Below are positions 40,031 to 56,966 of a DNA stretch of 64,000 bases, piece by piece. The notes under the pieces were generated by a model that made no database searches, was not told where the DNA came from, and saw only the letters and a list, made by a program, of their open reading frames with translations. The stretch is taken from IMG/VR virus record IMGVR_UViG_3300036770_007174, positions 28,336 through 92,335 of that record, one strand, 5' to 3'. Made by a program: the position numbers and the translations under genes. This stretch comes from a virus. Position 1 is the first letter of the stretch; every line of letters begins with the position of its first letter.

Positions 40031-40206
40031 CTGTGCTGCTCCTGCCTGGCGGGGCTTGGTCCCCTGCGCGTGATGGACACTTCGCGCTGGGGCGCGGCAG
40101 AGCCAACTCAGAATGTGCGCAGAATGATTGCTATCTGCGGCGCTGGCCGATCACATCGTGACGCAGGCAGCATCATCGCTTGATCGAGCGGCGGGAGGTC
40201 GCCGCC

Positions 40207-40746
40207 ATGCCGGAATTCACCCCGTCCACGCGAGAACTGGCCCGCCGCATCGGCGTCACTGAGACCGCCCTGCGCAAGGCAGAAGCCAAGGGCCGCATCG
40301 AGCGCGAGCCGGATGGCCAGTGGGATGTGGAGAAGACCCGCCGCCGGATGATCGAGACCGCGGACCCGGTGCGGTCGCCCCTGGCCGGTGCGGTGGGGGC
40401 TGGCACGACGCAGGCCGGGTTGTCGGGCGATGCCACGCCCTATGCCCGGCTGCGCGTTGCCCAACTGGCGCTCAAGGTTGAAGCCCAGCGCATGGCGCTG
40501 GATGAAGACAAAGGCCGGCTGCTTGACGCGGCGGCGGCCAATGCCGCCATCGACGAGATTGCCGGCGCCATGCGGGACGCGCTGCTGAACTGGCCCGCCC
40601 GGGTGTCCGGCCTGATCGCCGCCGACCTCGGGGTGGAGCCGCACCTGGTGCAGACCGTGCTGCAGCAGCACGTCGCCGATCTATTGACGGAGGCCGCAGA
40701 TCGCTTCGATCCCCCAGGCCTCGGAAACCGCGGCGCGGACCGCTGA
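40207..40746 (+). CDS. phage terminase small subunit
   Basis: The 179-residue protein starts with a Nu1-like winged helix (TRELARRIGVTETALRKAEAKGRIEREPDG), followed by a helical oligomerisation part (VAQLALKVEAQRMALDEDKGRLL, AAANAAIDEIAGAMRDALL). It sits 25 bases before the GpA-type large subunit and recognises packaging sites. Start ATG 40207 is preferred to the 40180 extension. Confidence 0.8.
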   Translation: MPEFTPSTRELARRIGVTETALRKAEAKGRIEREPDGQWDVEKTRRRMIETADPVRSPLAGAVGAGTTQAGLSGDATPYARLRVAQLALKVEAQRMALDEDKGRLLDAAAANAAIDEIAGAMRDALLNWPARVSGLIAADLGVEPHLVQTVLQQHVADLLTEAADRFDPPGLGNRGADR

Positions 40747-40771
40747 GCATGTCCGGCGTCGCGCAGGCGCC

Positions 40772-42670
40772 ATGCTGCGTCCACCGCCGCAACTCACAGT
40801 CAGCCAATGGGCCGATCAGCACCGGGTGCTGAGCACCCGCGCCTCGTCGGAGCCGGGGCCGTGGCGCACATCGCGGACCCCATATCTCCGGGACATCATG
40901 GATGCGCTCTCCGCGGTGCATCCCGCCCGGCGCGTGGTGTTCATGAAAGGCGCGCAGGTCGGCGCTTCCGAAGGGGGCAATTGCTGGTTGGGCTACATCA
41001 TGCACCACGTCCCGGCGCCGGTGCTGGCGGTGCAGCCAACCGTGGAACTGGCCAAGCGGTTCAGCCGGCAGAGGATCGATCCCCTGTTGGAGGAGACGCC
41101 CGCCCTGCGCGAGCGGGTGGCGCCGGCGCGGGCCAGGGACAGCGGCAACACCATGCTGTCCAAGGAGTTCCCGGGCGGCATTCTGGTGCTGACCGGCGCC
41201 AACTCGGCGGTGGGGCTGCGCTCGATGACGGCGCGGTTCCTGTTCCTCGACGAGGTCGATGCCTATCCCGGCGACGTCGAAGGAGAAGGCGACCCCATCG
41301 CTCTGGCCGAGGCCCGCGCTCGAACCTTCGGCTGGCGGCGCAAGGCGTATCTGGTCTCGACACCGACCATCGCCGGGCGCAGCCGGATCGAGCGGGAGTA
41401 TCAGGCCAGCGACCAGCGGCGGTTCTTCGTGCCGTGCCCGCACTGCCATGCGATGCAGTGGCTTCGGTTCGAGCGGCTGATCTGGGAGAAGGGCAACCCG
41501 GCCTCAGCGGTCTATCACTGCGAGGCCTGCGACACGCCGATCGGCGAGCACCACAAGACGGCGATGCTGGCCGACGGCGAGTGGCGCGCGACGGCGGAGG
41601 CGTCCGACCCGCACACGGTCGGTTACCACATCTCGGCGCTCTACTCGCCGGTAGGCTGGCTTTCGTGGGAGCAGATCGCGCGGGACTGGGAGGCGGCGCA
41701 GGGCAAGGCGGAGGACCTCAAGACCTTCCGCAACACCGTGCTGGGCGAGACCTGGCAGGAGCACGGCGAGGCGCCCGATTGGGAGCGGCTGGTCGAGCGG
41801 CGGGAGGATTTCCCGCTCGCCACCGTCCCACCGGGCGTGCTGGTGCTCACCGCCGGAGTTGACGCGCAGGACGACCGCATCGAGGTCGATGTGTGGGGCT
41901 GGGCCGAGGGATACACGTCCTGGCTCATCGACCATGTGGTGATTGCCGGCAGTCCGCGGGAGCGGGCGCCGTGGGACGAGCTGGCGAAGCTACTGGCGCG
42001 GGACTGGCCACGCGGCGGAGGCGGGATGCGCATCGCCAAGGTCTGCGTCGACACCGGCGGCCGGGACACGGCGTCGGTCTATGGCCACCTGCGCCATCTC
42101 CGGGATCCGCGCATTGCGCCGACCAAGGGCGTGGAGGGCTGGAACCGAGCACAGCCGGTGCAGGGACCGACGCTCGTGGACGCCCTGGTGAACGGCCAGA
42201 AGTTGCGCCGCGGGTTGAAGCTCTGGACGGTATCGGTCTCGACCTGGAAGGCGGACCTGTATCGCCGGCTCTGGCTCGGACGCGGCGACGCGGACGAGTT
42301 CCCCGAGGGTTGGGTGCATCTGCCGCGGGGGATTGAAGTCGAATGGGTGAAGCAGCTGGTCGCCGAGCAACTGCGCTCGACAAAGGACCGGCGAGGCTTC
42401 GCCCGGCAGGAGTGGTCGAAGCTCCGGGAGCGGAACGAGGCGCTGGATTGCGCGGTGCTGGCGCGCGCCGCGCTATGGCTGCTCGGTGCCGATCGCTACG
42501 GCGAGCGGTTCTGGCAGCGGTTGCGGGAGGAACTGGCTGATGCTCCGGTGCTGGTGCACCAGCTTCCCGCCGCTGAGAAGCAAGCAGTGCCGGCCCCGCT
42601 GGCACCCAGCAACGCGCAGCCGATGCGACCGCGCAACTGGCTTGGTGCTCGCTCCGGCTGGCTGCGCTGA
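40772..42670 (+). CDS. phage terminase large subunit, GpA family
   Basis: The 632-residue packaging motor has an N-terminal ATPase with Walker-A-like FMKGAQVGASEG (about residues 57-68), SAVGLRSMTARFLFLDEVDAYPGD with Walker B and catalytic Glu (about 150-160), and coupling motif LVSTPT. A zinc-binding pair CPHCHAMQW and CEACDTPIG follows, then the nuclease domain with VDAQDDRIEVDVWGW and VDTGGRDTASVY. This is the lambda GpA type that cuts at cos-like sites. Confidence 0.95.
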   Translation: MLRPPPQLTVSQWADQHRVLSTRASSEPGPWRTSRTPYLRDIMDALSAVHPARRVVFMKGAQVGASEGGNCWLGYIMHHVPAPVLAVQPTVELAKRFSRQRIDPLLEETPALRERVAPARARDSGNTMLSKEFPGGILVLTGANSAVGLRSMTARFLFLDEVDAYPGDVEGEGDPIALAEARARTFGWRRKAYLVSTPTIAGRSRIEREYQASDQRRFFVPCPHCHAMQWLRFERLIWEKGNPASAVYHCEACDTPIGEHHKTAMLADGEWRATAEASDPHTVGYHISALYSPVGWLSWEQIARDWEAAQGKAEDLKTFRNTVLGETWQEHGEAPDWERLVERREDFPLATVPPGVLVLTAGVDAQDDRIEVDVWGWAEGYTSWLIDHVVIAGSPRERAPWDELAKLLARDWPRGGGGMRIAKVCVDTGGRDTASVYGHLRHLRDPRIAPTKGVEGWNRAQPVQGPTLVDALVNGQKLRRGLKLWTVSVSTWKADLYRRLWLGRGDADEFPEGWVHLPRGIEVEWVKQLVAEQLRSTKDRRGFARQEWSKLRERNEALDCAVLARAALWLLGADRYGERFWQRLREELADAPVLVHQLPAAEKQAVPAPLAPSNAQPMRPRNWLGARSGWLR

Positions 42671-42681
42671 GGAGCACCATC

Positions 42682-42915
42682 ATGAACCCAGATGCACTGG
42701 CGTGGGCCATCGCCCAACCCATCGGCAACCGCTGGCGCGGCCTAGTCGATGCCTACACCGGCGGCACCACCCGCGTCACCTTCGAGGGCCGCACCGTCGA
42801 GTATCGGTCGCTTGCCGAGATCGCCCAGGCGCTGGCCGCCGGCTATGCCGCCGAGAACCAGGCGCAACGCCGTCCCTGCGTGACCCTGGCCCGCTTCACC
42901 CGCGACGGCGGCTGA
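42682..42915 (+). CDS. gpW-like head-tail joining protein
   Basis: The 77-residue protein lies between terminase and portal, where gpW sits in lambda-like phages. It has a helix-strand-helix layout (GTTRVTFEGRTVEYRSLAEIAQAL) with the beta hairpin typical of gpW. It joins the head to the tail tube after packaging. Confidence 0.7.
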   Translation: MNPDALAWAIAQPIGNRWRGLVDAYTGGTTRVTFEGRTVEYRSLAEIAQALAAGYAAENQAQRRPCVTLARFTRDGG

Positions 42916-42933
42916 CTGACTGGAGACCACCGC

Positions 42934-43113
42934 ATGTCGGAGGACGATGTCGCGCAGAAACTCGCCGTGCACGAGGCAATCTGCGCCGAGCGCTGGAAGC
43001 AGGCCGAGGGGCGTCTCAAGCGGATCGAGCTCGTGCTGATCGCCATCGTCTTCCTGCTGCTGCTCGGCGAAGACACGGCGCTCGAGGTCGTGAAGCGACT
43101 CGTGGCGAAGTAG
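42934..43113 (+). CDS. small single-pass membrane protein
   Basis: This 59-codon frame runs from ATG 42934 to TAG 43113 and encodes MSEDDVAQKLAVHEAICAER, then a charged helix, a hydrophobic segment ELVLIAIVFLLLLG (about residues 34-47) and a basic end VVKRLVAK. Position 18 bases after gpW and coding composition support it. It may act in lysis timing or membrane association; function unknown. Confidence 0.6.
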   Translation: MSEDDVAQKLAVHEAICAERWKQAEGRLKRIELVLIAIVFLLLLGEDTALEVVKRLVAK

Positions 43114-43130
43114 GGGACGAGATAGCGGCA

Positions 43131-43247
43131 TCAGCCGCGGAACAAGTACTTCAACAGCGCCGCAATGGCCACGATGATTAGGATGAGGACGAGGATACCC
43201 ACAAGGCCCATTCCCCAACCCGCATGGCCGTCCATCATCTGATACAT
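43131..43247 (-). CDS. 38-aa membrane peptide on the opposite strand
   Basis: MYQMMDGHAGWGMG is followed by a strong membrane helix (GLVGILVLILIIVAIAALLKYLF). A GGAG ribosome site lies 10 bases upstream on the minus strand. Met/His/Trp-rich heads with one helix occur in small copper- or respiration-linked peptides. It lies against the late operon between the 59-aa gene and portal, so it looks like an inserted cargo gene. An upstream in-frame start at 43343 is possible but adds unlike sequence. Confidence 0.5.
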   Translation of the reverse strand: MYQMMDGHAGWGMGLVGILVLILIIVAIAALLKYLFRG

Positions 43248-43382
43248 TTCGATCCATCTCCGGGCGCTGAGTTGAGGTCTGACTGTGAGCAGCACAGGAC
43301 CCGACGGCAAGAATATTTCTGTGCTCTCGATGAACACTTTCACCGGAGGCGAGATGACCCTCTCTTGCGCTGGCGGGCTTCC

Positions 43383-44873
43383 ATGAGATCAGGAATGAGC
43401 GGACGCCTCCGCGAGGCCTGGCGCGCTCTGCGTGGCTACGCTGCAGCCCAGGACGCCCGCGCGTCCACCTGGGCGGCCTCCGGTGGCAGCGCCAACAGCG
43501 AGGTGGCGAGCGCATCGAGCACCATTACCCGCCGCGCCCGCGATGCCGTCCGGAATGACCCCTACGCCGCCCGTATTATCGACCTCTGGACCGGCAACGC
43601 CGTCGGCGCCGGTATCACCACCCGCTGGCCCGACAAGAAGCACGCCGATGCCTGGCGGCGATGGGCCGAGAGCACCGCCTGCGACGCCGAGGGACGACTC
43701 GACCTCTATGGGCTGCAGGCGCTGGTGATGCGCTCCGTGGTCGAGAGCGGTGAATGCCTGGTTCGGCTGCTCACCAGCGAGCCGACATCCGTCAACCCCA
43801 TTGGCCTGCGGTTGCAGGTGCTGGAGAGCGACCATCTCGACGCCAGCCGGACCGGCACGATCGGCGGCGCTATCACTGTGCAGGGCATTAGCCTCGATGC
43901 CACCGGCGCACCGGCAGCGTACTGGCTGTTCCCGCAGCATCCGGGCGCCAGCTGGTATCTGGCTGGCATGAGCCAGAGCAGCGTGCCGATCCCTGCCAGC
44001 GAGGTACTGCACATCTATCGCAAGCGCAGACCCGGTCAGCTACGCGACGTGTCCTGGCTGGCACCGATCTTGCTGCGGCTGCGCGACCTCGGCGACTACG
44101 AGGCCGCCCTGTTGATGAAGGCCAAGATCGAGGCGTGCCTCGCCGCCGTGGTGACGGAGGAGGGTGATGAGGTGCTCACCGGTCCCGCGGCGGGTCTGCT
44201 GAAGGACGCGCAGGGCCGCACGGTAGAAGCCTTCGAGCCGGGGATGATCCTGTATCGCCGCGGCAGCGGCAGCGTCGAAGTGGTCAACCCATCCGGCGGT
44301 GGCAGCCACACCGCCTTCGCGCGGCGGGCGCTGGAAGCGGCCTCGGTCGGCGCCGGACTGACCTACGATCAAGTGTCCGGCGACCTCACGGCCGCCAACT
44401 ACTCCAGCCTGCGGGCGGGCAAGATCGAGTTCCGCCGGCTTTGCGAGCAGGTGCAGTACGGCATGCTGATCCCGATGCTGGTGCGGCCCATCGCCGACCG
44501 TTTTCATCAGCAGGGTGCGCTGCTGGGCCTTTGGGGCGCGGAGATGCCGCCCGATTTCGCGCATGTCCCACCGGCGCACGAGATGATCGATCCGCTGAAG
44601 GACACCACGGCGTTGATCGCCCAGGTGCGCGCCGGCTTCGTGCCGCAGCCCGAGGCTGTGGGCTCCTTCGGCTACGACTTCCGCCAGGCGGTGGAGATGA
44701 TCCGCGAGGCCAATGGACTGCTCGACGACGCCGGTATCTCGCTCGACAGCGATCCCCGCCGCGTCGCCAAGTCGGGATCCGCGCAGGACGCGGCCCAAAT
44801 GGCGGCCATCGAGATCGCCGCGACAGGTGCCGCGATGCCGGCGCAGACGCAGGCCCCGCAACCTCAAGGCTGA
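43383..44873 (+). CDS. phage portal protein, lambda family
   Basis: The 496-residue portal has family blocks RRARDAVRNDPYAARIID, NAVGAGI, LDLYGLQALVMRSVVESGE, LQVLESDHLD, IYRKRRPGQLRDVSWLAP, GLTYDQVSGDLTAANYSSLRAG and a helical C-terminus. It forms the dodecameric ring at the capsid vertex. ATG 43383 is chosen; ATG 43395 is an alternative. Confidence 0.9.
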   Translation: MRSGMSGRLREAWRALRGYAAAQDARASTWAASGGSANSEVASASSTITRRARDAVRNDPYAARIIDLWTGNAVGAGITTRWPDKKHADAWRRWAESTACDAEGRLDLYGLQALVMRSVVESGECLVRLLTSEPTSVNPIGLRLQVLESDHLDASRTGTIGGAITVQGISLDATGAPAAYWLFPQHPGASWYLAGMSQSSVPIPASEVLHIYRKRRPGQLRDVSWLAPILLRLRDLGDYEAALLMKAKIEACLAAVVTEEGDEVLTGPAAGLLKDAQGRTVEAFEPGMILYRRGSGSVEVVNPSGGGSHTAFARRALEAASVGAGLTYDQVSGDLTAANYSSLRAGKIEFRRLCEQVQYGMLIPMLVRPIADRFHQQGALLGLWGAEMPPDFAHVPPAHEMIDPLKDTTALIAQVRAGFVPQPEAVGSFGYDFRQAVEMIREANGLLDDAGISLDSDPRRVAKSGSAQDAAQMAAIEIAATGAAMPAQTQAPQPQG

Positions 44874-44877
44874 CACC

Positions 44878-46989
44878 ATGACCGAACCCATCGAACCGGG
44901 CGGGAGCGATCCCGCACCGGTGACGACGCATGCCAATCGACTTCCCACCGATGGGCAGTCGATCACCGCCGCCCGCGCTCTCTCGGCACCGGCGACCGTC
45001 AACCGCGCCGCGCGCACCGTCGAGGTGGTGTGGTCCACAGGCGCCCGTGCCCGCAACTTCGTCCCACCCCTTGGCCTGATCACCGAGGAACTCGACATGT
45101 CGCCCAACGCGGTGCGCATGCAGGGGCTGCGAGATGGCGGGACCCCGGTGCTCAACACCCACCGCAGTGGTGATGCCCGCGACGTCGTGGGACGCGTGAT
45201 CGCCGCGCGGCTGGAAGCCGGCCGCGGCATTGCCACGCTGCAGTTCTCGTCCGCGGCCGATGTCGAGCCGCTGTGGCAGCGCATCGCCGACGGCACGCTG
45301 CGCAGCGTCAGCGTCGGCTATCGCGTGCACCGCTACGAGCCGATCCCGGATTCGGTCGCCGGCACCGTACATCGCGCCGTCGATTGGGAGCCCTACGAGA
45401 TCTCCGTTGTCCCGCTGCCGGTCGATCCAGCCGCCGCCGTGCGCGGCGCCAGTGACACCCCGCCCATGCCGGCCATCGAGCCGGTCATCCCCGATCCCGC
45501 CCTCACGATCACCCAGGAGACGACCATGCCGGACCCGGCAGACGCCGCGCCGACCACCACTGCCACTGGCCAGGAGGCCAATCCGACCATGCCCCCCAAC
45601 ACTGCGACTGCACCCACGGCGTCGGCGGCCCCGGCCACGACGTCGCCCCCGGCGCCCGACCTCGATGCCATCCGTGCCGAGGCCGATCGCGCTGCCACCG
45701 AGCGCATCGCCAGCTATGACCCCGTGCTCACCGCCGCCCGCGGCCTGCTGCCGGACGAGCAGATCGATGCCCAGCGCCAGGCCGCCATCCGCGAGCGGAT
45801 CTCCACTGACGTGCTGCGGGGCCGGTTGTGGGATGCCTTCGCCCGGCAGGGGCGGAGCACGCCGCCGACGCTGCCGGCCAATCCGGCTGCAGGTCCGGGC
45901 GCCCAGGACCCCGAGAGCGTCCGCGACGCCATGGCCGAGGCGCTGGCCGTGCGCGCCATGCCCGGCTACCAGCCGGCCGGCGGGGCAGCGGGACGCCACA
46001 GCGAGTTCCTCGGCTGGCGCCCCTCCGACATGGTGCGGGAACTGCTGACGCTGCGCGGCGAGCGCCAGGTGCCGCGCGATCCCGTCCGTCTCGCCGAGCG
46101 TGCCTTCCACACCACCAGCGACTTCCCGGCCCTGCTCTCGGCCGCGGCCAACAAGATGCTGCTCGCCGCCTACGCGCCGGCCGCCCCCAGCTACCGCCAG
46201 GTCTTCCTGCGGCGCGACTTCCGCGACTTCAAGCCGCACCGCCACCTGCGGATCGGCGACTTCCCAGTGCTCCAGCCGCTGCTGGAGAACGGCGAGATCC
46301 AGGCCGGTACCATGTCCGAGAGCCAGGAGATCGTGCTGCTGCAGACCTTCGCCCGGCGCATTCGCGTGACCCGGCAGATGCTGGTCAACGACGACCTGGG
46401 TGCGTTCACCGATTTCGCCGCGATGATCGGCCGGCGCGTCGCCGACTTCGAGAATGCCACCGCCTATGGGCTGATGAACCTCGCCAACGGCGACGGTCCG
46501 ACGTTGCTCACCGGCAGCGCACCGGTGTTCGCCACCGCGGCGACGCGGGCCAACAAGGCGGCCTCCGGCACGGCGCTGGACGAGACCAACATCGGCAAGG
46601 GCCGCGAGGCGATCATGAAGCAGCGCTCGCTCGACGGGCTGCCGATCGCGCTCGGCCGCAGCATGCGCGTGCTGGTGGGGCCGGCGCTCGAACTCGCGGC
46701 GCTGAGGCTGACCACCTCGATCACCCCGGCGAACTCCGGCAGCGTGAACCCCTATGTCGGGCTGCTGCAGCCGGTGGTGGAGCCGCTGATCCCGGCCAAC
46801 CGCTGGTATCTCTTCGCCGAGCCCCCGACGACGCCGGTCTATGTCTACGGCTACCTCAATGGCGCCGAGGGGCCGCAGGTCACCACCGGCCCCGTCTCGG
46901 GCGTCGATGGCGTCGAAGTGTCGGTGATCTTCGACTTCGGGGTGGGTGCCATCGACTGGCGCGGCGCCTGGTTCAACCCCGGCACCTGA
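44878..46989 (+). CDS. prohead protease-major capsid protein fusion
   Basis: The 703-residue protein starts four bases after the portal stop. Residues 35-200 match the Mu/HK97-type prohead protease (TVEVVWSTGARARNF, GTPVLNTHRSGDARDVVGRV, RSVSVGYRVHRYE, EISVVPLPVDPAA). A disordered Pro/Thr/Ala linker follows to about 250. The C-terminal part from about 390 is the capsid subunit (YRQVFLRRDFRDFKPHRHLR, IRVTRQMLVNDDLGAFTDF). Capsid assembly and self-processing are thus on one chain, presumably separated by cleavage in the linker. Confidence 0.85.
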   Translation: MTEPIEPGGSDPAPVTTHANRLPTDGQSITAARALSAPATVNRAARTVEVVWSTGARARNFVPPLGLITEELDMSPNAVRMQGLRDGGTPVLNTHRSGDARDVVGRVIAARLEAGRGIATLQFSSAADVEPLWQRIADGTLRSVSVGYRVHRYEPIPDSVAGTVHRAVDWEPYEISVVPLPVDPAAAVRGASDTPPMPAIEPVIPDPALTITQETTMPDPADAAPTTTATGQEANPTMPPNTATAPTASAAPATTSPPAPDLDAIRAEADRAATERIASYDPVLTAARGLLPDEQIDAQRQAAIRERISTDVLRGRLWDAFARQGRSTPPTLPANPAAGPGAQDPESVRDAMAEALAVRAMPGYQPAGGAAGRHSEFLGWRPSDMVRELLTLRGERQVPRDPVRLAERAFHTTSDFPALLSAAANKMLLAAYAPAAPSYRQVFLRRDFRDFKPHRHLRIGDFPVLQPLLENGEIQAGTMSESQEIVLLQTFARRIRVTRQMLVNDDLGAFTDFAAMIGRRVADFENATAYGLMNLANGDGPTLLTGSAPVFATAATRANKAASGTALDETNIGKGREAIMKQRSLDGLPIALGRSMRVLVGPALELAALRLTTSITPANSGSVNPYVGLLQPVVEPLIPANRWYLFAEPPTTPVYVYGYLNGAEGPQVTTGPVSGVDGVEVSVIFDFGVGAIDWRGAWFNPGT

Positions 46990-47042
46990 GCCTGCGCCGG
47001 CAACGCCCGGCTGATCCTCATCTCCATCCTCATCGTCACGCG

Positions 47043-47075
47043 GACGGGCGGCCTTCGGGTCGCCCGTCGCGTTTT
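47043..47075 (+). terminator. UUCG-capped terminator after the capsid gene
   Basis: GACGGGCGGCC and GGGTCGCCCGTC form an 11-base-pair stem (one G-T pair) closed by a C(TTCG)G tetraloop, and TTTT follows at 47072-47075. It lies 54 bases after the capsid stop and can reduce or end transcription into the tail genes. Confidence 0.7.
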
Positions 47076-47089
47076 CGGAGTGTCTCAGC

Positions 47090-47431
47090 ATGAAGAACTT
47101 CGTCCAGCCGGGCCTCTCGGTCTCGCTGCCCATGCCGTACGACCGCACCTCTGGCCAAGGCGTGCTCGTCGGTGCCCTGTTCGGTGTCGTCGCGGTCGAT
47201 GCGCTTTCCGGTGTCACCGCCGATGTCGCGGTGAACGGCGTGTTCGATATCACCAAGGAGGCGCCGCTGGTGATTGCCGTCGGCGCCCGGGTGTTCTGGG
47301 ACAATACCAACCGCCGGGTCACCACCACCGCCACCGGCAACGTCGCCATCGGCCATGCCGTCGCCGCTGCGGCGTCGGCCGACACCACGGTGCGGGTCCG
47401 TCTCTCCGGCTCCACCGCGGCAGGCACCTGA
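47090..47431 (+). CDS. DUF2190 capsid-associated protein
   Basis: The 113-residue protein has the pattern MKNFVQPGLSVSLPMP, VLVGALFGVVAVDAL, ITKEAPLVIAVGARVFWDN and NVAIGHAVAAA. DUF2190 proteins decorate or stabilise capsids. It follows the capsid gene after the terminator-like hairpin. Confidence 0.85.
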   Translation: MKNFVQPGLSVSLPMPYDRTSGQGVLVGALFGVVAVDALSGVTADVAVNGVFDITKEAPLVIAVGARVFWDNTNRRVTTTATGNVAIGHAVAAAASADTTVRVRLSGSTAAGT

Positions 47432-47457
47432 CGCCGCCTCACCTCAGGAACCCCGCC

Positions 47458-47634
47458 ATGACCTATCTGATCGCCCGCTTCCGCGAGGCCAGCACCTATG
47501 GTGCGCTCACCGGCGTCTTCGCCGCGCTCGGCCTGCATTTCGATCCCGGCGTGATGCAGAACATCACCCTCATCGGCACTGGCATCGCCGGCCTGCTCGG
47601 CATCCTGCTCCGCGACCGGGGGGCCGGCGCATGA
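47458..47634 (+). CDS. small holin-like membrane protein
   Basis: The 58-residue protein has helices in TYGALTGVFAALGLHF and ITLIGTGIAGLLGILL and a charged end RDRGAGA. The endolysin start overlaps its end (ATGA at 47631), the usual holin-endolysin order. It would form the pores that release the lysin. Confidence 0.7.
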   Translation: MTYLIARFREASTYGALTGVFAALGLHFDPGVMQNITLIGTGIAGLLGILLRDRGAGA

Positions 47635-48011
47635 TGACGGCCCGCGACAAGGCCCGGCTCGCCGGCGTGCATCCCGACCTGGTGGCCGTCGTCGAGGCGG
47701 CGCGCCAGCTTCTGCCCTTCATCGTGGTGGAGGGGATGCGCACGCGCGAGCGCCAGGCCCAGCTGGTGAAGGCCGGCGCCAGCCGAACGATGGACAGCCG
47801 CCACCTCACCGGTCACGCCGTCGATCTCGCCCCGACGGTGGCAGGCAAGGTCCGCTGGGATTGGCCGTTATTTTTTCCTATGGCCAAGGCGATGAAGGAC
47901 GCGGCCCAGGCCCGCGGCGTTGCCCTGGTCTGGGGTGGCGACTGGCCGAAGTTCCGCGACGGTCCGCACTTCGAACTCAACCGCGATGCCTATCCGGCGG
48001 GGAGGGGCTGA
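47631..48011 (+). CDS. phage endolysin, M15 D-Ala/L-Ala-D-Glu peptidase
   Basis: This 126-residue protein has the VanY/CwlK peptidase core: VEGMRTRERQAQLVKAGAS, SRHLTGHAVDLAP with zinc-binding His and Asp, and DGPHFELNR with the second His. It hydrolyses peptidoglycan cross-links at lysis. Its stop overlaps the next start (TGATG). Confidence 0.9.
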   Translation: MMTARDKARLAGVHPDLVAVVEAARQLLPFIVVEGMRTRERQAQLVKAGASRTMDSRHLTGHAVDLAPTVAGKVRWDWPLFFPMAKAMKDAAQARGVALVWGGDWPKFRDGPHFELNRDAYPAGRG

Positions 48012-49375
48012 TGTCGGCCTTCGCCTCCATGTTGGCCGCTGTGCACGCTGACACCAACATCGGCACGCCGGCCGACTTCCGCCGCCCGCCCGGCCCCTGG
48101 GTGCCGGCCCGCGTCGTTCTGTCCCGGCCGACCGACACCATCGGCGGGCTGGGCGGCATCGCGACCCGGGCCGGCAGCCTGGCCGCCGCTCTCCTGGCCG
48201 GCGACATCGCGCCGCTCGTGCCGCGGCGGGGCGATGAGCTGCTGCTCGACGGCAGGGTGCGCAGCATCGAGACCGCCGAACCCGACCCGCTCGGCCTGTC
48301 CTGGCGCCTGGTCCTGTCCGATCTGCTCTCCGAGGCCGCGCCCGACCCGGTGATCGGCGCCATCCGCTACGATGCCTGGGACGTGCCGTCCTCCGGCCTG
48401 ACCCAGGCGGAACAGGCCGCGCTGTCGCAGACGGGCTTCACGCACCGTGCGCCCTTCTGGGCCGCGGTCGCTGGCAGCAGCGTGACCCTCCCGGCGGCGA
48501 CCCAGGCGCGCATGGACGCCGAGATCGCCCATGCGGCCGCCGCGGGCCTTGCCTTCTGGGCCTTCCTCGGCTGGGACCCGTCCACCCCGGAGATCACCGC
48601 GCTGAACCTCTACCGGTCGAGCAGCCGGCGCGGCGACATCGGCTTCTGCATGATCGAGAACATGCAGGGCCTTTACTATCTCGGGACCTGGCTGCCGAAC
48701 GTCGCCCGCACGATCGCGCTCATGGCCGAGCCCGGCTACCGGAAGGTCTTCGGCACCCGCCCGCTGCTGTTCATCAACTCCATGTCCGATGCCGACATCA
48801 TGGCGCGCTTCGGCAGCATGGACGCCACCGCAACGGTGCTCGACGGCATCCGCGAGCACTGCGTCCTCGCGGGTGTGGGCGACCCCTACATCGTCATGAT
48901 GGACGGGTGGCACACCCGCGCCGCCGCCCTGGCCGGCTATGGTGCCGATGCCGCCTCGTCCTATGCCGCGATCGGGCAGATCGCCGCGCCGACGCCCTAC
49001 ATCTCCCTGATGGCCGCGGCCGAGCAGTGGCGCATCGATGCCGCGGCGCTGGGCGTGGATGTGGTGCCGCCGCTGACCTTCGGCTGGGACTACCGGCCGC
49101 GCATCGGCGGACCGCCCGCCTGGTTTGGCGCCGCGGCGACCGGCGATCCCAACGCCCACTGGCTGCCGCCGACCCCCGACGAGATCGCACGGCATGCGGC
49201 CGATGCCGTCGCATGGCTGCGCGCCAACGAACCTGCCGCTCCGGCGCAGATCGCGATTGCCTATGCCTGGAACGAGTTCAGCGAGGGCGGCTGGCTCTGC
49301 CCGACCTTCCTGGCCGGGGAGCCGGCCGGCGACACCGCGCGCATCGCCGCCCTGGCGACCGTCCTCAAGCGATAG
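48011..49375 (+). CDS. head-tail adaptor fused to a glycosidase-like barrel
   Basis: In this 454-residue protein, the first 110 residues match the head-tail joining protein of GTA-like phages (MSAFASMLAAVHADTNIG, VPARVVLSRPTDTIGG, LVPRRGDELLLDGRVRSIE, WRLVLSD). From about residue 115 to the end it resembles the WbsX/GH99-like glycoside-hydrolase-type barrel: IGAIRYDAWD, AAAGLAFWAFLGWD, YIVMMDGWHTRA and AYAWNEFSEGGWLCPT. The adaptor part closes the head, and the barrel may cut or bind surface polysaccharide. Catalytic residues were not confirmed. Confidence 0.7.
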   Translation: MSAFASMLAAVHADTNIGTPADFRRPPGPWVPARVVLSRPTDTIGGLGGIATRAGSLAAALLAGDIAPLVPRRGDELLLDGRVRSIETAEPDPLGLSWRLVLSDLLSEAAPDPVIGAIRYDAWDVPSSGLTQAEQAALSQTGFTHRAPFWAAVAGSSVTLPAATQARMDAEIAHAAAAGLAFWAFLGWDPSTPEITALNLYRSSSRRGDIGFCMIENMQGLYYLGTWLPNVARTIALMAEPGYRKVFGTRPLLFINSMSDADIMARFGSMDATATVLDGIREHCVLAGVGDPYIVMMDGWHTRAAALAGYGADAASSYAAIGQIAAPTPYISLMAAAEQWRIDAAALGVDVVPPLTFGWDYRPRIGGPPAWFGAAATGDPNAHWLPPTPDEIARHAADAVAWLRANEPAAPAQIAIAYAWNEFSEGGWLCPTFLAGEPAGDTARIAALATVLKR

Positions 49376-49398: not shown

Positions 49399-49620
49399 AT
49401 GCTGATCCGCTTCACCATGCCCTGCGTCCTGGGCACGACCGAGTACGCCTCCGACGCGGAGGCAGATCTGCCGCCCGAGGTGGCCAACATGGCGCTGATG
49501 CTGGGACGCGGCGTGCGCGCGATGCCGGAGCCACAGTCTGCGCCGCCGCAGTCGGCACCGGAGGAGCCGACCGCCGCCACCCCGGTGCCCGATGAGAGCG
49601 CCGGGGCAGAGCAGACCTGA
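49399..49620 (+). CDS. small hypothetical structural protein
   Basis: The 73-residue protein has a small beta domain (MLIRFTMPCVLGTTEYASDA, LPPEVANMALMLGRGV) and a Pro/Ala/Glu-rich disordered tail. Between adaptor and tail-terminator genes, it is likely a minor structural protein. Function unknown. Confidence 0.6.
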   Translation: MLIRFTMPCVLGTTEYASDAEADLPPEVANMALMLGRGVRAMPEPQSAPPQSAPEEPTAATPVPDESAGAEQT

Positions 49621-49635
49621 CGGACGCCGCATCCC

Positions 49636-50085
49636 ATGGCGACCCCCCTGCGCGAGGCGGCGCTCGCTGCCGTCGCGGCGCGGCTGCGCGCGCAGATGCC
49701 CGACGTGGCGCTCGATCGCGCCCGGCGCAGCGCCATCGATGCCGATCGCGAGCGCCTGCCGCGCCTCATCCTGCGCGGCGAGGACATCGAGGCCGACGAC
49801 ACCCAGGAGCCCGGCCGCACGCACTACCGGATCGGCTTCGCGGTCGTCGCCGTCACGCGCGCCGGCTCGGACCTGGACCTCGAACAGGCGCTGTCATCGC
49901 TGCACGCGCGCATCGTCGCCGCCCTGGCCGGCTGGGTGCCGGACATCTGGGGTCTCGGCGACGTGGCCGAGCAGGGCGCGGAGTTCGTCCTCTACGACGC
50001 CGAGGACAGCGCCAAGCCGGCCGGCGAGTGCGTCGCGCGCTTCTCCATGCGCGCCGAGGCACCGAGCGGCAGTGCCACCCTCTGA
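49636..50085 (+). CDS. tail terminator-like protein
   Basis: The 149-residue protein has the pattern LREAALAAVAARLRAQMP, RTHYRIGFAVVAVTRAGSD, LEQALSSLHARIVAALAGW, like gpU/DUF3168 minor tail proteins that cap the tube. Its position just before the tail tube gene fits. Catalytic motifs are not expected. Confidence 0.7.
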   Translation: MATPLREAALAAVAARLRAQMPDVALDRARRSAIDADRERLPRLILRGEDIEADDTQEPGRTHYRIGFAVVAVTRAGSDLDLEQALSSLHARIVAALAGWVPDIWGLGDVAEQGAEFVLYDAEDSAKPAGECVARFSMRAEAPSGSATL

Positions 50086-50133: not shown

Positions 50134-51300
50134 ATGACCACCTCCACGGTTCGCTCCAAGTTCGCGGCGTTCGCGGTGAAGCTCGAAACCCTGCCGGGCC
50201 AGGACGCCATCGGCGGCACCCCGGCAACCGGCGACTGGGTGCTCGGCGAGATCGAGTGGGACTACGATCCGCAGACGATCGAGAACCCGGAGATCACCGG
50301 CAGCCTCGATCGCGCACCGGGGATCGTCGGCGGGCTGCGCCCGAGGTTGCGCATCCGGGTGCCGCTGCGCGGCTCCGGCGGCTCCATGCCTCCGCCGGAC
50401 TGGGGCAAGCTGATGCAGTGCTGCGCCTACAGCGAGACGTTGACCCCGGCACCGATCGGCGCGCCGACGGCCGCCGTCGCCGGCACCCAGCTTTCCATCA
50501 CGGCGGGCGCGCCCTTCGGCACCACCCCGAACCAGTATCGCGGCATGCCGCTGCTGGCCTCCGGCGACCAGACCTTCACCACGGCGATCATCGGCTACAC
50601 CGGCGCCAAGGTGATCTTCCTCGGGGAAATGCGGGCCGTGGCCCCCACCACCGCCACCCTGATCCAGATCCCGGTGCACAATCTCTACGCGCCGACCTCG
50701 GACGAGGCGGTCTACAAGACCTGCACCATCTATGCCTATGTCGACGGCTACAACTGGCGGTTCGGCGGATGCGTCGGCACCTGGTCGCTGGAACTGACCA
50801 CCGGCGGCATCGGCATGCTGACCTTCGAGATGCGCGGCCAGATGCTCGCCAAGACCGGCGCCGCGCTGCCCACCGGATGGAACACCGTCATCCGCCCGGC
50901 CGCGCCGCGCTTCGTGGCCGGGCGCGCGCAGCTCAACTACGTCCTCGCGCGGTGTCGCAGCCTGACCTTCAACGCCGGCGTCGGCGTCACCCTGCCCGAC
51001 AACCCCGAGGCCATCGAGGGCTACGATCCCGCCGTGCCGATCGAGCGCGCCAGCGGCGGCAGCATCGACCCCCTCAAGGACACCGTGAACGGCACCCAGC
51101 TCTACGACAATTTCCGCTCCGGCGCCGGCATGTCGCTGTTCGCGGTCGTGGGCAGCATGCCGGGCAACCGCTTCATCATCACGGCACCCAATGTGCGCGC
51201 GCAGGGCATGCGCCATGGCCAGCGCGAGGGGTTGATGACCGACGAGATCCCCTTCGCCTGCAGCGGCGTCGACTCTGCGCTGTACCTCGCCGCCTTCTGA
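50134..51300 (+). CDS. major tail tube protein
   Basis: The 388-residue protein begins MTTSTVRSKFAAFAVKLETLPG and contains IENPEITGSLDRAPGIVGGLRPRLRIRVPLRG and GTWSLELTTGGIGMLTFEMRGQ, the beta-sheet pattern of phage tail tube proteins. It is larger than a lambda gpV-type subunit and may carry an extra surface domain. It builds the siphovirus tube. Confidence 0.8.
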   Translation: MTTSTVRSKFAAFAVKLETLPGQDAIGGTPATGDWVLGEIEWDYDPQTIENPEITGSLDRAPGIVGGLRPRLRIRVPLRGSGGSMPPPDWGKLMQCCAYSETLTPAPIGAPTAAVAGTQLSITAGAPFGTTPNQYRGMPLLASGDQTFTTAIIGYTGAKVIFLGEMRAVAPTTATLIQIPVHNLYAPTSDEAVYKTCTIYAYVDGYNWRFGGCVGTWSLELTTGGIGMLTFEMRGQMLAKTGAALPTGWNTVIRPAAPRFVAGRAQLNYVLARCRSLTFNAGVGVTLPDNPEAIEGYDPAVPIERASGGSIDPLKDTVNGTQLYDNFRSGAGMSLFAVVGSMPGNRFIITAPNVRAQGMRHGQREGLMTDEIPFACSGVDSALYLAAF

Positions 51301-51321
51301 TCCCCCACCCCGGAGCCCATC

Positions 51322-51897
51322 ATGGTCCCTGTCTTCACCCGGCGCGAGGCCGAGCGCTTCACGCCGCCCGGCTCGCCGCGCACGTACATCCTGGCCCCGC
51401 TCACCTTTCGCGAGCGGCAGGCCTTCCGCGCCGAGATGGCGCGCGAGGGCGGGCTCTATCCGCCGCGCGCGCAGCTTCTCGACGCGCTGCGCGAGGCGGT
51501 GCGCGAGGCCTCGCCCGGCAACGCCGACGAACTGGTCGCGCATATCGACGCGGCCGAGGCCGATCCCGACGGCGAGGACCGCGCGGTGCAGCAGCGCCTC
51601 GCCACGATCGAGGCGGCCTGCGCCGGCATCCCGGTCTATGCCACGCTGATCGCGGCGCGGCAGCGCTATGCCGGCATGCTGCCCTGGGTTGCCGCCCGCC
51701 ATGCGCTGCGCGGCTGGGAGGGCGACGGGCTGCCGCCCTTCCTGCGCCAGGGCGGCACGGTCCCGGCCGATCTGCTCGACCTGCTGCCGGGCGACGAGAT
51801 CGAGGCGGTGGGAAACCGCGCGGCCGAACTGATGCAGCCGGACCGGAGTGCGGAGGGAAACTCCGCACCGCCCTCGTCCTCGCCCGTGATCCCCTGA
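51322..51897 (+). CDS. tail assembly chaperone (gpG-like)
   Basis: The 191-residue protein with TYILAPLTFRERQAFRAEMAREGG and RQRYAGMLPWVAARHALRGW is a tail chaperone in the gpG position. Its last codons carry a -1 slippery heptamer (51855-51861) for making a longer GT-like product. It guides tail tube assembly around the tape measure. The zero-frame end EGNSAPPSSSPVIP is a disordered tail. Confidence 0.8.
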   Translation: MVPVFTRREAERFTPPGSPRTYILAPLTFRERQAFRAEMAREGGLYPPRAQLLDALREAVREASPGNADELVAHIDAAEADPDGEDRAVQQRLATIEAACAGIPVYATLIAARQRYAGMLPWVAARHALRGWEGDGLPPFLRQGGTVPADLLDLLPGDEIEAVGNRAAELMQPDRSAEGNSAPPSSSPVIP

Positions 51898-51931
51898 TCT
51901 GCCAGGGCGGTCTGCGTCCACCCGAGGGCGG
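51855..51931 (+). promoter_or_regulatory. programmed -1 frameshift signal (slippery site plus stem)
   Basis: Slippery heptamer G GGA AAC lies at 51855-51861 in the zero frame, the same class as lambda GGGAAAG. Six bases later CCGCCCTCG (51868-51876) pairs perfectly with CGAGGGCGG (51923-51931); an overlapping 8-base alternative, ACCGCCCT/AGGGCGGT (51867-51874 with 51904-51911), can also form. Slipping back one base joins the gpG frame to the downstream frame ending at 52169. Confidence 0.8.
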
Positions 51932-52169
51932 CGACTGGATCGTCGCAGGTCAGGTCTGGGCGGAGAATCCACGCATCGTCTTGGACGGCGCCTGGGCGGC
52001 CTTCGTGCGACTGTGGGCGTCCTGCCGCGCCGGCATGGGCGGCATCGCCTGCTGGCCGGATGCGGGCGGCGTGGCCGACCAGGCGGCCTGGGTGGTCGAT
52101 GCTTTCGCCACCCTGGGGGCCATCGACGCGGACCTCGACGAGGACGAGCGGCGGCGCCGCGGAGGCTGA
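51861..52169 (+). CDS. T domain of the frameshifted tail chaperone (gpGT-like)
   Basis: This frame has no good start of its own and continues from the slippery site as LRTALVLARDPLICQGG, then DWIVAGQVWAENPRIVLDGAWAAF, CRAGMGGIACWPDAGGVADQAAWVVDAF and an acidic, Arg-ending tail. The full fused protein would run 51322-52169 with about 282 residues. In lambda the T domain binds the tape measure, and the same role is inferred here. Confidence 0.75.
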   Translation, partial: LRTALVLARDPLICQGGLRPPEGGDWIVAGQVWAENPRIVLDGAWAAFVRLWASCRAGMGGIACWPDAGGVADQAAWVVDAFATLGAIDADLDEDERRRRGG

Positions 52170-52170
52170 C

Positions 52171-52929
52171 ATGGCCATTGCGCCCCCAGGGATCGGCACC
52201 ACCACCCGCGCCGGCATCCGCGCGGCGATGGATGCGGAGATCGTCGCCATCGCCGCCGGACTGCGCCAGGCGGTGGCGCGCACCGGCCGGCAGGTCCAGC
52301 AGGAACTGCGCGCCCAGGCGCGGGCGGGCGGCTTCAAGGATGGCGGCCGGGCGATCGCCAATGCGTGGCGCCTGCGCATCTATCCCGCCGAGGGCACGGC
52401 CCCGCGCACGTGGCGGCCGGCGGCGCTCGTGCATTCTAACGCGCCCGAGATCGCCGACGCCTTCGACAAGGGCGTGCCCATCGTGGCCAAAGGGCAGCGC
52501 TGGCTCGTCTTCCCGACCGCCTGGAATGCGCGGCAAGGCCGTCGCGGGGCCTCGTCGCGCGGCGGGGTGCGGGTGACCCCGGCGCAGATGATGGCGGCCA
52601 AGGGCGACGCCTTCGTGATCCGCTCGAAGTCCAATCCCGCGGTGCGCCTCTGGTGCCTGCGCGTGCGCGAGGCGCGCGGCCTGTCGCGCCGCGCGCGCAA
52701 CCGCATCCGCCTCTGGGCCGGGCCGGCGGAGGTGCTCACCGGCAACCGCAAGGGGCGCCAGCAGGCCGCGCGCGACCTGCTCGACCGGGGGTTCGTGCCG
52801 ATGTTCCTGCTGATGAAGCGCGTTGCCGTGCGCAAGCGGCTCGACATCGAAGCCGTGCGGTCGCGGGCGGGCGGGATGTTCGCCGCCAATGCCATCGCCG
52901 AACTGCGGCGCGGAGGCGGTCCGGGATGA
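52171..52929 (+). CDS. DUF6441 phage protein
   Basis: The 252-residue basic protein has AAGLRQAVARTGRQVQQELRAQARAGGFKDGGRAIANAWR, LVFPTAWNARQGRRGASSRGG and FVPMFLLMKRVAVRKRLDIEAV. This pattern fits DUF6441, a family encoded between tail chaperone and tape measure genes. It is likely a minor tail or assembly protein. Its stop overlaps the tape measure start (ATGA). Confidence 0.75.
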   Translation: MAIAPPGIGTTTRAGIRAAMDAEIVAIAAGLRQAVARTGRQVQQELRAQARAGGFKDGGRAIANAWRLRIYPAEGTAPRTWRPAALVHSNAPEIADAFDKGVPIVAKGQRWLVFPTAWNARQGRRGASSRGGVRVTPAQMMAAKGDAFVIRSKSNPAVRLWCLRVREARGLSRRARNRIRLWAGPAEVLTGNRKGRQQAARDLLDRGFVPMFLLMKRVAVRKRLDIEAVRSRAGGMFAANAIAELRRGGGPG

Positions 52930-55900
52930 GCGGCAGCGCGCGCAACGTCTCGATCCGCGTCTCGGCCGAGGAGGTCGATTCGGCGCGGGCGCGCCTGGAA
53001 GCGCTCGGCGACGTGGGCGACCGCGCGCTGCGCCGGGTGGAGACCGCGGCCCAGGCGGCGGCCAACGCCTTCGCGGGCGTGGCCCGCCCGGCGGATGCCG
53101 AGGCGGTGCGCCGCCGCGGTGAGGACATCGCCGCCTATGGCGTCGAGCTCGACCGGCTGCGCGGCAAGTTTGACCCGCTCTTCGCCGCGCAGCAGCGCCA
53201 CAAGGCCCTGCTTGAGGAGATCGGCCGCGCCGAGCGCGTCGGCGCCATCGATGCCGTCACCGCCGCCGGCGCGCGGGACAAGGCCACACGCGGGTATCTT
53301 GACAGCACCGCAGCCTTGCGCGGCATGGCGCCCGCCGCCCAGGCCGCGGCGAATGCCCAGGTGCAGCTGGCGCGGACGGGCGAGCTGTCCGCCTACCAGC
53401 AGCGCATCCTGAACATGCAGCTGAGCGACGTGTTCCAGACGCTCGCGCTGGGCATGCCGCCCATGATGGTGTTCCTCCAGCAGGGGCCGCAGATCGTCGA
53501 TGTCTATGGCGGCGTCGGCAACACGCTTCGGGCGCTGACCGCCGCTGTCGGGGGACCGTTCGCGCTGGCCTTCGGGGTCGGGGCCGTGGCGGTCGGCGGC
53601 CTGGCCGCCCGCGCCGCGAGCCTGACCGGCGAGGCACGCACGCTGTCGGTCGCCCTGCGCGCCGTCGGCCGCGACGCCGAGATCGCCACCGCCGACCTGC
53701 AATCCTACATCCGGGCGCTGGAACAGCAGGGCGTCGCGCGCAGCGACGCGCGAGCCATCGTCGCCGACCTCGCCCGCACGCCCGGCCTCGCGGCGGGCGA
53801 TATCGGCCGCGCGGCGCGGCTGGCCCCGGACCTCGCCGCGGCGACCGGCACCGATGCGGCGGCAGCGGGCAAGCAGTTGGCCGACCTGTTCGCCTCGCCC
53901 GCCGACGGCATCCGCAAGCTCGACACCGCGCTCAACTTCCTGACCGCATCCCAAGCCGGGGCGATCCGCACCATGCTGGAGCATGGCGAGCGCACCAAGG
54001 CGGTCGACGTCGCCGTCGATGCCCTGACCAGGCGGATCGGCGGGCTGTCGCGGGACGCGCTCTCGCCGATGGGCACGGCGCTGCGCGACCTGTCGAGCAA
54101 CTGGACCACCTTCATGGACTCGGTCGCGCAGTCGCGGCCGATCGTCGCCCTGGTCGAGACGCTGAACCTCGCGGTCCAGGGCATCAGCTGGGCAGTCGGC
54201 TCGGCGCCGGCCGGGGAGCGCACCGATCGCGAGATTGCGCGGCTCGAAGGGTTGCTCGCCGGGACCGACAGTTATGGTGCGCCGAGCGTCGCCGGCGACG
54301 CCCGCCGCGTCATCGAGCAGCAGCTCGCCGACGCCCGCGCCCGCCGGATGATCCAGGGCGGCCCGGTCACCGGCGGTGCCGCGGCGGCACCTGAGCCGGG
54401 CGGCCGGATCGGGGGCAGCCCGATCGGCGAGCCGTCTCCCGGGCAGCTTGCCGCCCAGCAGAAGCAGGTCGATCTCCTCACGCAGTCCTGGCGCGACCAG
54501 CAGCGCGTGCTGGCGGCATCGATCCCGGACCGGGTGCGGGTGCGCGCGGAGATCGCCGCCGCGCGCGAGGCGGCCGAGAAGAACATCACCGGCGCGGCGC
54601 GCGAGGAGCTGATCCGCCGCCGCGTCGCCGAGGCGATCCGCGGCGAGGCCGATGCGCGCGGTCAGGAGATCGCCGCCATCACCCGCGAGGGGCAGGCCGC
54701 GCTGGCGCTGGCTCAGGCGTCCGAGCAGGGCCGCGCGGCGATGCTGCGCAGCAAGGCGGCGGCCGAGGCGCACGCGCAGGCGGCGACGCAGACCGCGGCG
54801 AACGAGCGCGTGCTGACCGAGGCGATCCTGAACCGTGGCGCGGCACAGGAGGCCGCCAGCGGTGCCGAGGCGGCGGTTGCGCTCAAGGAGCAGAATGAGG
54901 CGCTGCGCCGGCTGATCGACGCCGAGCGCCAGGGCGACCGCGCAGCCTTCCAGGCGGCGGTGGCCGAGCGCACGCGCGAGGCGACGCGGGCGATGGAGGC
55001 GCAGCGCGAGGTCGCGACCGACCCGGCGATCCGCGAGGCGTTGACGGCGCAGATCGATCTGGTCCGCCGCCGCACCGAGGAGCAGGCGGCGCTCAACGCC
55101 GAGTTAGCGCAGGCCCGTCGTCTCTCCGCCGGGCGCCGCGAGCTCGAAGACCTGCGCGACCAGATCGACCTGCTTGGCGAAAGCGCTGCCGTGCGCGAGC
55201 GCGAACTGGCGACGCGGCGGGCGACCCGCCAGTTGGTCCAGGAGGGTGCCGATCCGGCGAACCTCACCGCGGCACAACGCGCCCTGGTCGATCAGGCCGC
55301 GGCGCTCGCCGACGCGAACACGCAGCTTCGCCAGCAGCGCGGCCTCTACGATGGCATCGCCGACAGTGCTGTGCAGGCCTTCGGGCGGGTCGGCGACGCA
55401 ATCACCCAGGCCTTCGTCGGGGGGCAGGGCGCCGCGGTGAACTGGGGCAACGTCACCCGCGGCGTGGTGTCCTCGGTGCTGTCCGAGATCGTGAAGCTCT
55501 CCCTCGTCAATCCGCTCCTCAACGCCGTCCTCGGCACCGAGCGCCCGTCCATGTTCTCGGCCGGCGGCGGCCTGGGCCTGTCGGACATCCTGAGCGGCGG
55601 CAGCCTGCTGGCGCGCGGCGCCGAGTTCCTGGGGTTCGACATCGCGGGCTCGCTCGGCCTCGGCGGCGGCAGCCTGTCGGGCAGCATCGGCACCGCGCTC
55701 TTCGGCGCGACCCCGCTCGGCCCGACCCTGAGCGGCGCGCCGCTCGCGGCCACGCCCGGCCTCTTCGGCACCTACGGCACCTCGCTCCTCGGCGGCTCGC
55801 AGCTGACCCTGAGCGGCGCCTTCGCCGGCATCGGCGGCGGCTTCGCGGCCGGCGCGATGCTCAACACCCTGCTCGGCCGCAGCCCCGCGCAGCAGACCAA

Positions 55901-56966
55901 TGGCATGATCGGCAGCGGCCTCGGGGCCTTGGGCGGCTTCCTGGTCGGCGGTCCGATCGGTGGGCTCATCGGCGGGCTTGCCGGCGGCGGGCTGGGCGGC
56001 CTGTTCGGGCCGGGCGAGTCGGTGCAGGGCTGGGGCTACTGGCTCGAAAGCCAGGACGGCCGCCTCAAGCCCATCGACCGCCGCTGGTTCAACGAGTCCG
56101 GCGCCCAGCACTTCGCCCATGCTGACCAGCAGGTCGCGGCCATCAACGCCCTGCTGGAGCAGAGCGGCCTGTCCGTGACCGGAGCCCGCAACGTCGGCGG
56201 CAACAAGAACGGTCCCGACCGTTCCTGGGGCGGCGCCGGCTCTTTCGAGGAGGCATTCGCCGACCTCCGCTTCACCGCCGCCAACGACGATGGCCTGAAC
56301 GCCGTCCTTGCCGGCCGGAGCTTCGCGGGACCGGCCGACCTGCAGACCATGCTGGCGGTCCGGGATACCATCCGCGGCCTGACGGCAACACCGGCCGAGA
56401 AGCTGGCTGACGCCATCGCGGCGGTGAACGCGCAGTTCGACGCCCTGACCGAGCAGGCGCGCAGATACGGTCTGGCCGAGACCGGCCTCGCCGAGGCCCG
56501 CAGCCGCGCCATCGCCGACGCGCAGGCCCAGGCAAACCCCGGCGCGCAGTCGCTGCTCGCCGACCTCGCCTTCGGCGGGCAGTCGGCGCTGGCGCCGGAG
56601 CAGCGCTACTTCGCCGCGCTGTCGCTGCTGAACGATGCGCGCGGGCGCTTGGGCTCGGGCGGGGACGTGGACTCCTTCGCGGCAACCGCGCGCCAGGTGC
56701 TGCCGGTGGCGCGCGACTTCCTCGGCACGTCGGACCGCTACGCCGGCCTAGTCGCCGATGTGGCCGGCGTGCTGTCGCGCGGCGGCGGGGACACGGCCGG
56801 GCTGGGCGCGCTGCTCCAGGCCCAGGCCGACGGCGGCGACGCGCTGCGCGAGACCTTCGCCCGCTACGGCGAGCGGCAGTTGGATGTCGCCACCGCAACC
56901 CTCGCCGAGTTCCGCCGCCTCGCCTCGGCGATCGAGGCCCTGCTCGCGCGGCGCACCGCCGCCTGA
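52926..56966 (+). CDS. tail length tape measure protein
   Basis: The 1346-residue protein begins SIRVSAEEVDSARARLEALGDVGDRALRRVE and is mostly long Ala/Arg/Gln-rich helices. Hydrophobic Gly-rich membrane-like segments appear near residues 190-220 and 940-1030 (GGGFAAGAMLNTLLG, GGFLVGGPIGGLIGG), as in tape measures that insert DNA through the host membrane. QLSDVFQTLALGMPPMMVFLQQGPQ near residue 165 is the phage tape-measure N-terminal block. Length predicts a tail of about 200 nm using the usual 1.5 angstrom per residue. Confidence 0.9.
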   Translation: MSGSARNVSIRVSAEEVDSARARLEALGDVGDRALRRVETAAQAAANAFAGVARPADAEAVRRRGEDIAAYGVELDRLRGKFDPLFAAQQRHKALLEEIGRAERVGAIDAVTAAGARDKATRGYLDSTAALRGMAPAAQAAANAQVQLARTGELSAYQQRILNMQLSDVFQTLALGMPPMMVFLQQGPQIVDVYGGVGNTLRALTAAVGGPFALAFGVGAVAVGGLAARAASLTGEARTLSVALRAVGRDAEIATADLQSYIRALEQQGVARSDARAIVADLARTPGLAAGDIGRAARLAPDLAAATGTDAAAAGKQLADLFASPADGIRKLDTALNFLTASQAGAIRTMLEHGERTKAVDVAVDALTRRIGGLSRDALSPMGTALRDLSSNWTTFMDSVAQSRPIVALVETLNLAVQGISWAVGSAPAGERTDREIARLEGLLAGTDSYGAPSVAGDARRVIEQQLADARARRMIQGGPVTGGAAAAPEPGGRIGGSPIGEPSPGQLAAQQKQVDLLTQSWRDQQRVLAASIPDRVRVRAEIAAAREAAEKNITGAAREELIRRRVAEAIRGEADARGQEIAAITREGQAALALAQASEQGRAAMLRSKAAAEAHAQAATQTAANERVLTEAILNRGAAQEAASGAEAAVALKEQNEALRRLIDAERQGDRAAFQAAVAERTREATRAMEAQREVATDPAIREALTAQIDLVRRRTEEQAALNAELAQARRLSAGRRELEDLRDQIDLLGESAAVRERELATRRATRQLVQEGADPANLTAAQRALVDQAAALADANTQLRQQRGLYDGIADSAVQAFGRVGDAITQAFVGGQGAAVNWGNVTRGVVSSVLSEIVKLSLVNPLLNAVLGTERPSMFSAGGGLGLSDILSGGSLLARGAEFLGFDIAGSLGLGGGSLSGSIGTALFGATPLGPTLSGAPLAATPGLFGTYGTSLLGGSQLTLSGAFAGIGGGFAAGAMLNTLLGRSPAQQTNGMIGSGLGALGGFLVGGPIGGLIGGLAGGGLGGLFGPGESVQGWGYWLESQDGRLKPIDRRWFNESGAQHFAHADQQVAAINALLEQSGLSVTGARNVGGNKNGPDRSWGGAGSFEEAFADLRFTAANDDGLNAVLAGRSFAGPADLQTMLAVRDTIRGLTATPAEKLADAIAAVNAQFDALTEQARRYGLAETGLAEARSRAIADAQAQANPGAQSLLADLAFGGQSALAPEQRYFAALSLLNDARGRLGSGGDVDSFAATARQVLPVARDFLGTSDRYAGLVADVAGVLSRGGGDTAGLGALLQAQADGGDALRETFARYGERQLDVATATLAEFRRLASAIEALLARRTAA

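Follow-up and report, generated by a model that had tools for sequence, protein, structure and literature searches.

The window analysed here comprises 64,000 nucleotides, bases 28336-92335 of the 92,335-base virus record IMGVR_UViG_3300036770_007174, and includes a phage structural cluster in the gene order terminase gpA, lambda-type portal, capsid, cement protein, M15 peptidase, fusion gene, 73-aa ORF, terminator, tail tube, DUF6441 and tape measure (Table 1). The fusion gene occupies 48011-49375 on the plus strand, where the preliminary description had placed it; the ORF listing gives one intact frame, and a single uninterrupted run of 454 residues spans exactly these bases. Its start overlaps the stop of the M15 peptidase-like gene by one base. 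The latter is a lysis-type enzyme within the head cluster, just 5' of the stopper gene, and locus L023 has a GH108 muramidase (about 500-1093) near the corresponding place upstream of its stopper gene. Short ORFs between barrel and terminator differ per fused lineage: other short ORFs replace the 73-aa ORF in L009, where the ORF has a hydrophobic stretch, and in L003, and lineages with a stand-alone stopper are without it. This gap (window 49399-49620; L009, L003) is a small cargo spot. The homologue of the tail terminator gene in L057 matches the tail terminator family phrog_4204 (E 1e-6). Elsewhere in the window, a DNA methylase gene with a weak ParB-N match (35774-37033) is likely a phage methyltransferase. 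A Piwi-domain (prokaryotic Argonaute-like) protein is encoded at 13229-15526 on the plus strand (26.6 bits, just below the cut-off of 28.9), close to a helicase of MrfA type (1846 aa) and a weak match to a STAND NTPase (4995-10535 and 10566-12557), a region that looks like a defence island.

Table 1. Features of the head-to-tail region around the fusion gene, in window coordinates
Feature	Position	Strand	Basis
Head module: terminase large subunit (TerL), portal, capsid and cement genes	40772..47431	+	PF05876, PF20454, PF05136, PF25209, PF09956
M15 D-Ala-D-Ala carboxypeptidase-like gene, directly upstream of fusion	47631..48011	+	PF13539 E 4.7e-11; translation
gpFII-type head-tail joining (stopper) domain, residues 1-105	48011..48325	+	PF05354, NF049848, Foldseek, stand-alone homologues
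Linker/junction, residues 106-113	48326..48349	+	Stop codon of stand-alone homologues, with the terminator gene next
GH99-like (beta/alpha)8 barrel, residues 114-454	48350..49372	+	AF2, Foldseek, sequence profile
Candidate catalytic dyad E422-F-S-E425 (ExxE), after strand beta8	49274..49285	+	Conservation; GH99/GH71 spacing
Small ORF, 73 aa, between barrel and terminator	49399..49620	+	ORF also present in L008
Tail terminator gene	49636..50085	+	PF23840, 25.5 bits, just below cut-off 27
Tail module: tail tube, DUF6441 and tape measure genes	50134..56966	+	PF18906, PF20039, PF06791

Residues 1-101 of the fusion protein match PF05354 (Phage_attach; E 3.1e-9, 37.7 bits against a cut-off of 26), and the N-terminal part also exceeds the cut-off of 25 for the NCBIfam model NF049848 (tail_join_FII; 26.1 bits). 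Fold matches in the PDB obtained with Foldseek include the stopper of phage R4C (8gtf_M) and lambda neck structures (8k37_M, 8xow_f). The stopper fold and a gene position ahead of the tail terminator are as in the gpFII family. An adaptor module of about 110 residues had been proposed from the sequence; the module is there, but it ends at about residue 104 and is better named a gpFII-type stopper.

An AF2 model built on a 37-row alignment of the window protein and related loci has a mean pLDDT of 88.7 and a pTM of 0.79 (an earlier alignment of four close sequences gave a pLDDT of 35), with values of about 96 for the barrel and 35-83 per ten-residue block for the stopper part. In this model, eight strands alternate with helices (residues 114-119, 182-186, 211-217, 250-256, 293-297, 314-316, 354-356 and 414-418). 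Foldseek matches 1 to 37 against the PDB are all GH99 or GH99-like (best E 2.5e-8; target TM 0.52-0.65 for the top GH99 matches with the full-length query), followed by GH71, and the 37-row sequence profile independently matched OpGH99A (5ngw, E 1.9e-4). The single window protein had no phmmer match in the PDB, and a 27-row profile produced chance-level PDB matches only. The approximately 342 residues beyond the stopper have no Pfam family above cut-off: WbsX (PF14307) scores 11.3 bits on the window protein against a cut-off of 25.1, with six of the 37 aligned members matching at E <= 0.01 (best 6.6e-7), and PF16317 (GH99) matches neither the window protein nor any aligned barrel member. PF16317 was also silent in the virus record itself and across a phylum-level set of 399 genomes, as were the controls. 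The barrel is GH99-like, but is not a GH99 member by sequence. Its top PDB matches are of this kind, and it shares the (beta/alpha)8 fold and, as far as spacing and place after strand 8 go, the [D/E]xxE motif with the GH99 endo-alpha-mannosidases and mannanases (BtGH99, BxGH99, OpGH99A) and with GH71; it differs from them in having only 9-16% identity in structural alignments, in lacking PF16317 and in being fused to a phage neck protein. With WbsX or 'GH99-like domain' proteins (PF14307) it shares the weak matches of family members, an AWNExxEG motif and relatives in polysaccharide clusters, whereas the window protein itself falls below the Pfam cut-off. The motif YAWNEFSEGGWLC is present in the window protein.

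GH99 and GH71 enzymes have in common a [D/E]xxE catalytic pair, EW[H/G]E in GH99 and DYGE in GH71 (PMC11025385, PMC12394665). The E422-x-x-E425 spacing and its site just after strand 8 fit this motif. Among 27 relatives not chosen by motif, 23 of which came from a whole-protein search, all have E425 (27/27), and position 422 is E in 23 and D in two; R119, D121, E171, R281, D313 and G358-W359-D360 are likewise invariant. For the viral set, one search pattern contained the motif, which biases the E425 count. We treat E422/E425 as a candidate catalytic dyad. In the fused protein of L057, E425 is replaced by R and W359 by Q (GQD instead of GWD), and this member is thus possibly inactive. E422 is also replaced in some class B and C members (see below), and together these substitutions imply that some family members may bind only. 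The preliminary description had suggested an adaptor followed by about 340 residues like WbsX/GH99-type barrels, and had named a single unrelated fold, or absence of the catalytic acids and binding pocket, as grounds for rejecting this; the structure prediction it called for gave two unrelated folds, a GH99/WbsX-type barrel being the second, and the acidic pair is present, so the description survives its own test.

The joining of the two modules described at the outset is borne out by five distinct fused sequences (the window, L003, L008, L009 and L057, with L007 a near-copy of L008), the other four being 52-77% identical to the window protein, and by a barrel dN/dS of 0.061 between the window and L008, indicative of purifying selection. 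No start codon at the junction is conserved among the five fusions, and L008 and L057 have none nearby. This start-codon comparison and the dN/dS value led us to reject internal-start and pseudogene readings. The fusion is optional: a stand-alone 105-residue stopper, 76% identical to that of the window, is encoded by the record's second prophage (G000:8699), and further stand-alone stoppers were found in L004, L005, L006, L020, L024 and L025. At the stand-alone loci checked, the tail terminator gene starts a few bases past the stopper stop codon. The record's two prophages share 86% DNA identity as far as window base 48315, which is stopper codon 102, and the alignment picks up again only within the terminator (window 49789, at 74%). 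This single 92-kb record carries two related prophage head modules, window 39110-48315 and L103 86-9003, 86% identical over about 9 kb. The window stopper is 76-86% identical to stand-alone stoppers of its own lineage and 43% to that of the distant L023, as against 49-58% to the other fused stoppers, and in a small stopper tree it groups with stand-alone ones with weak support. Its barrel, by comparison, shares 84% identity with the L008 barrel. Given these affinities and the DNA break at codon 102, the window phage is, on sequence comparison, a mosaic joined at or near the domain boundary.

We searched for the barrel in 397 genomes of the order and in viral contigs and found four settings, comprising a stopper carrier (class A), a phrog_13532-type carrier (class B), a tail-terminator-like carrier (class C) and secreted-looking proteins or barrels alone (class D/S). 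The window fusion, previously seen as a single case, is one of three carrier architectures, and every neck-region carrier holds the barrel at its C-terminus. Class A comprises the five distinct sequences above. In class B (L066, L059; contractile-tailed phages) the barrel ends a phrog_13532 protein of ~270 residues encoded directly 5' of the tail sheath gene, and in class C (L048/L107) it ends a tail-terminator-like protein encoded between head closure Hc1 and the tail sheath; the L048 carrier matches phrog_6774 (E 9e-20) and terminator PHROGs (E 1e-4). Class D/S members have N-termini resembling signal peptides, as judged by eye, or consist of the barrel alone. On L091, an unrelated phage contig, a stand-alone barrel has an SGNH-type esterase and virion genes nearby (L091:3018-4592 and 6992-8029). 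Of the 397 genomes, 164 encode the class B carrier, usually in a frame with no room for a barrel; 14 genome loci do have the barrel. Long class B frames that lacked a barrel match were inspected for other C-terminal domains and owed their length to an open upstream side, the 11 clear cases ending 5-25 residues beyond the carrier. This carrier is at most a candidate tail terminator, with a terminator PHROG scoring 13.6 bits only and the PDB returning only weak sheath-protein matches.

A phylogenetic reconstruction of 51 barrels recovered class A as one clade (100/96), joined L059, which has carrier B, to class A (100/99), nested class C (L048) within class B (98/93) and set D/S apart (96/89). 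The placements of L059 and class C indicate that the barrel changed carrier at least twice. Such switches also fit plain modular recombination lacking any shared function.

Outside phages, the one host locus examined (L110) has an exopolysaccharide cluster context, in which the gene of a secreted-looking barrel protein is preceded by genes for a polysaccharide pyruvyl transferase, a sulfotransferase-like protein and a glycosyltransferase, the last a 1187-aa protein with a WbsX-like start. Remote relatives (30-32% identity) belong to polysaccharide clusters of Bradyrhizobium plasmids. A phylum-wide sample contained the barrel in two of 399 genomes, one a fused MAG and the other already found in the order search, and the family is nearly confined to one bacterial order. 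We take the host to be acetic-acid-bacteria-like (acetobacterial). From the secreted-looking relatives, the exopolysaccharide and polysaccharide clusters and the order restriction, we infer with good reason that the barrel would target capsule or host sugars, as had been suggested for it.

Lambda gpFII is a hexamer in the neck and its C-terminal loop contacts the terminator ring (PMC10721106). By extension, six copies of the window stopper would form a ring between head and tail terminator, and would thus place six barrels around the outside of the neck; a C-terminal addition to either stopper or terminator should give about six barrels at one neck level. Outward display at the neck surface is inferred by this analogy. 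The E422/E425 pair may then cut host exopolysaccharide, or the barrel may at least bind it, helping the particle to pass through or cling to the host slime layer, or freeing progeny. The barrel is probably hydrolytic and possibly binding only. On balance we consider it probable that the protein is a gpFII-type stopper whose C-terminal GH99-like domain rings the neck and engages acetobacterial exopolysaccharide by cutting or binding. The presence of the same domain on two further neck-region proteins suggests that necks may carry tools against host sugar coats. A bolder proposition is that phages of acetic-acid-bacteria-like hosts have repeatedly used neck-region proteins (stopper, terminator and phrog_13532) to display a catalytically active GH99-like enzyme that cuts exopolysaccharide, as a cassette moving between carriers; this would set a virion enzyme site at the neck instead of at the tail tip or fibres, and is tenable if somewhat doubtful.

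The barrel may instead be a non-catalytic neck decoration which retains the glycosidase fold and only binds host polysaccharide, like the lactococcal neck passage structures. Loss of E425 in the fused L057 is consistent with this, and both carbohydrate-binding domains and an exchange of domains are known from neck passage proteins (PMC10684548), but the near-constancy of both acidic residues in relatives not selected by motif and the strong purifying selection across the whole barrel make it unlikely, if worth keeping in mind. A structural or assembly role, in which barrels strengthen the joint between stopper and terminator or protect the neck with no sugar involved, would accord with two carriers being ring proteins of the same junction and with the neck decoration proteins of phage 812, which are thought to reinforce it (PMC12886913). 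Most close relatives are without the domain and presumably still assemble, the acidic pair is conserved and the top structural matches are glycosidases, and we regard such a role as improbable.

Action outside the virion, with the barrel either cleaved off or freeing progeny from exopolysaccharide in late infection or lysis, finds some support in phage contigs such as L091, which encode the barrel alone, and in the gene's neighbourhood, with an M15 peptidase next to it and, in L023, a GH108 muramidase near that site. Fusion to a virion ring protein has nonetheless been kept in five lineages, and two further neck-region carriers hold the barrel, always C-terminally, leaving little probability for this reading as well. 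All stopper-fused cases come from metagenome contigs or MAGs, a point in favour of a chance or artefactual joining of two genes; such an origin is vanishingly unlikely in view of five divergent fused sequences, the purifying selection and the occurrence of other carriers in whole genomes too, and the independent fused contigs already refute it.

The search for phage enzymes that attack host sugar coats normally concentrates on tail fibres and spikes. If such enzymes also sit on neck proteins, a class of virion enzymes has been missed by annotation and structural work, and the interest of the present case lies in the repeated capture of the barrel by neck-region proteins. Natural controls are at hand, with stand-alone and fused stoppers in one record and one domain on three carriers, and the system may point to enzymes for acetobacterial exopolysaccharides. 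A stopper-glycosidase fusion appears in none of the titles listed by literature searches, a BFVD search gave no viral model combining stopper and barrel, and neither the window protein nor the L091 stand-alone barrel has a match among INPHARED phages. To our knowledge, none of the lactococcal neck passage or phage 812 decoration proteins is GH99-like. With lambda gpFII and PF05354 the window protein shares profile matches above cut-offs, the neck fold and the gene order before the terminator, but lambda gpFII is a whole protein of 117 residues and the window protein adds a 340-residue enzyme-fold domain. The lactococcal neck passage and phage 812 neck decoration proteins resemble it in providing extra neck domains, some of them carbohydrate-binding, and in domain exchange, but they are separate proteins, whereas the window barrel is fused to the stopper ring itself.
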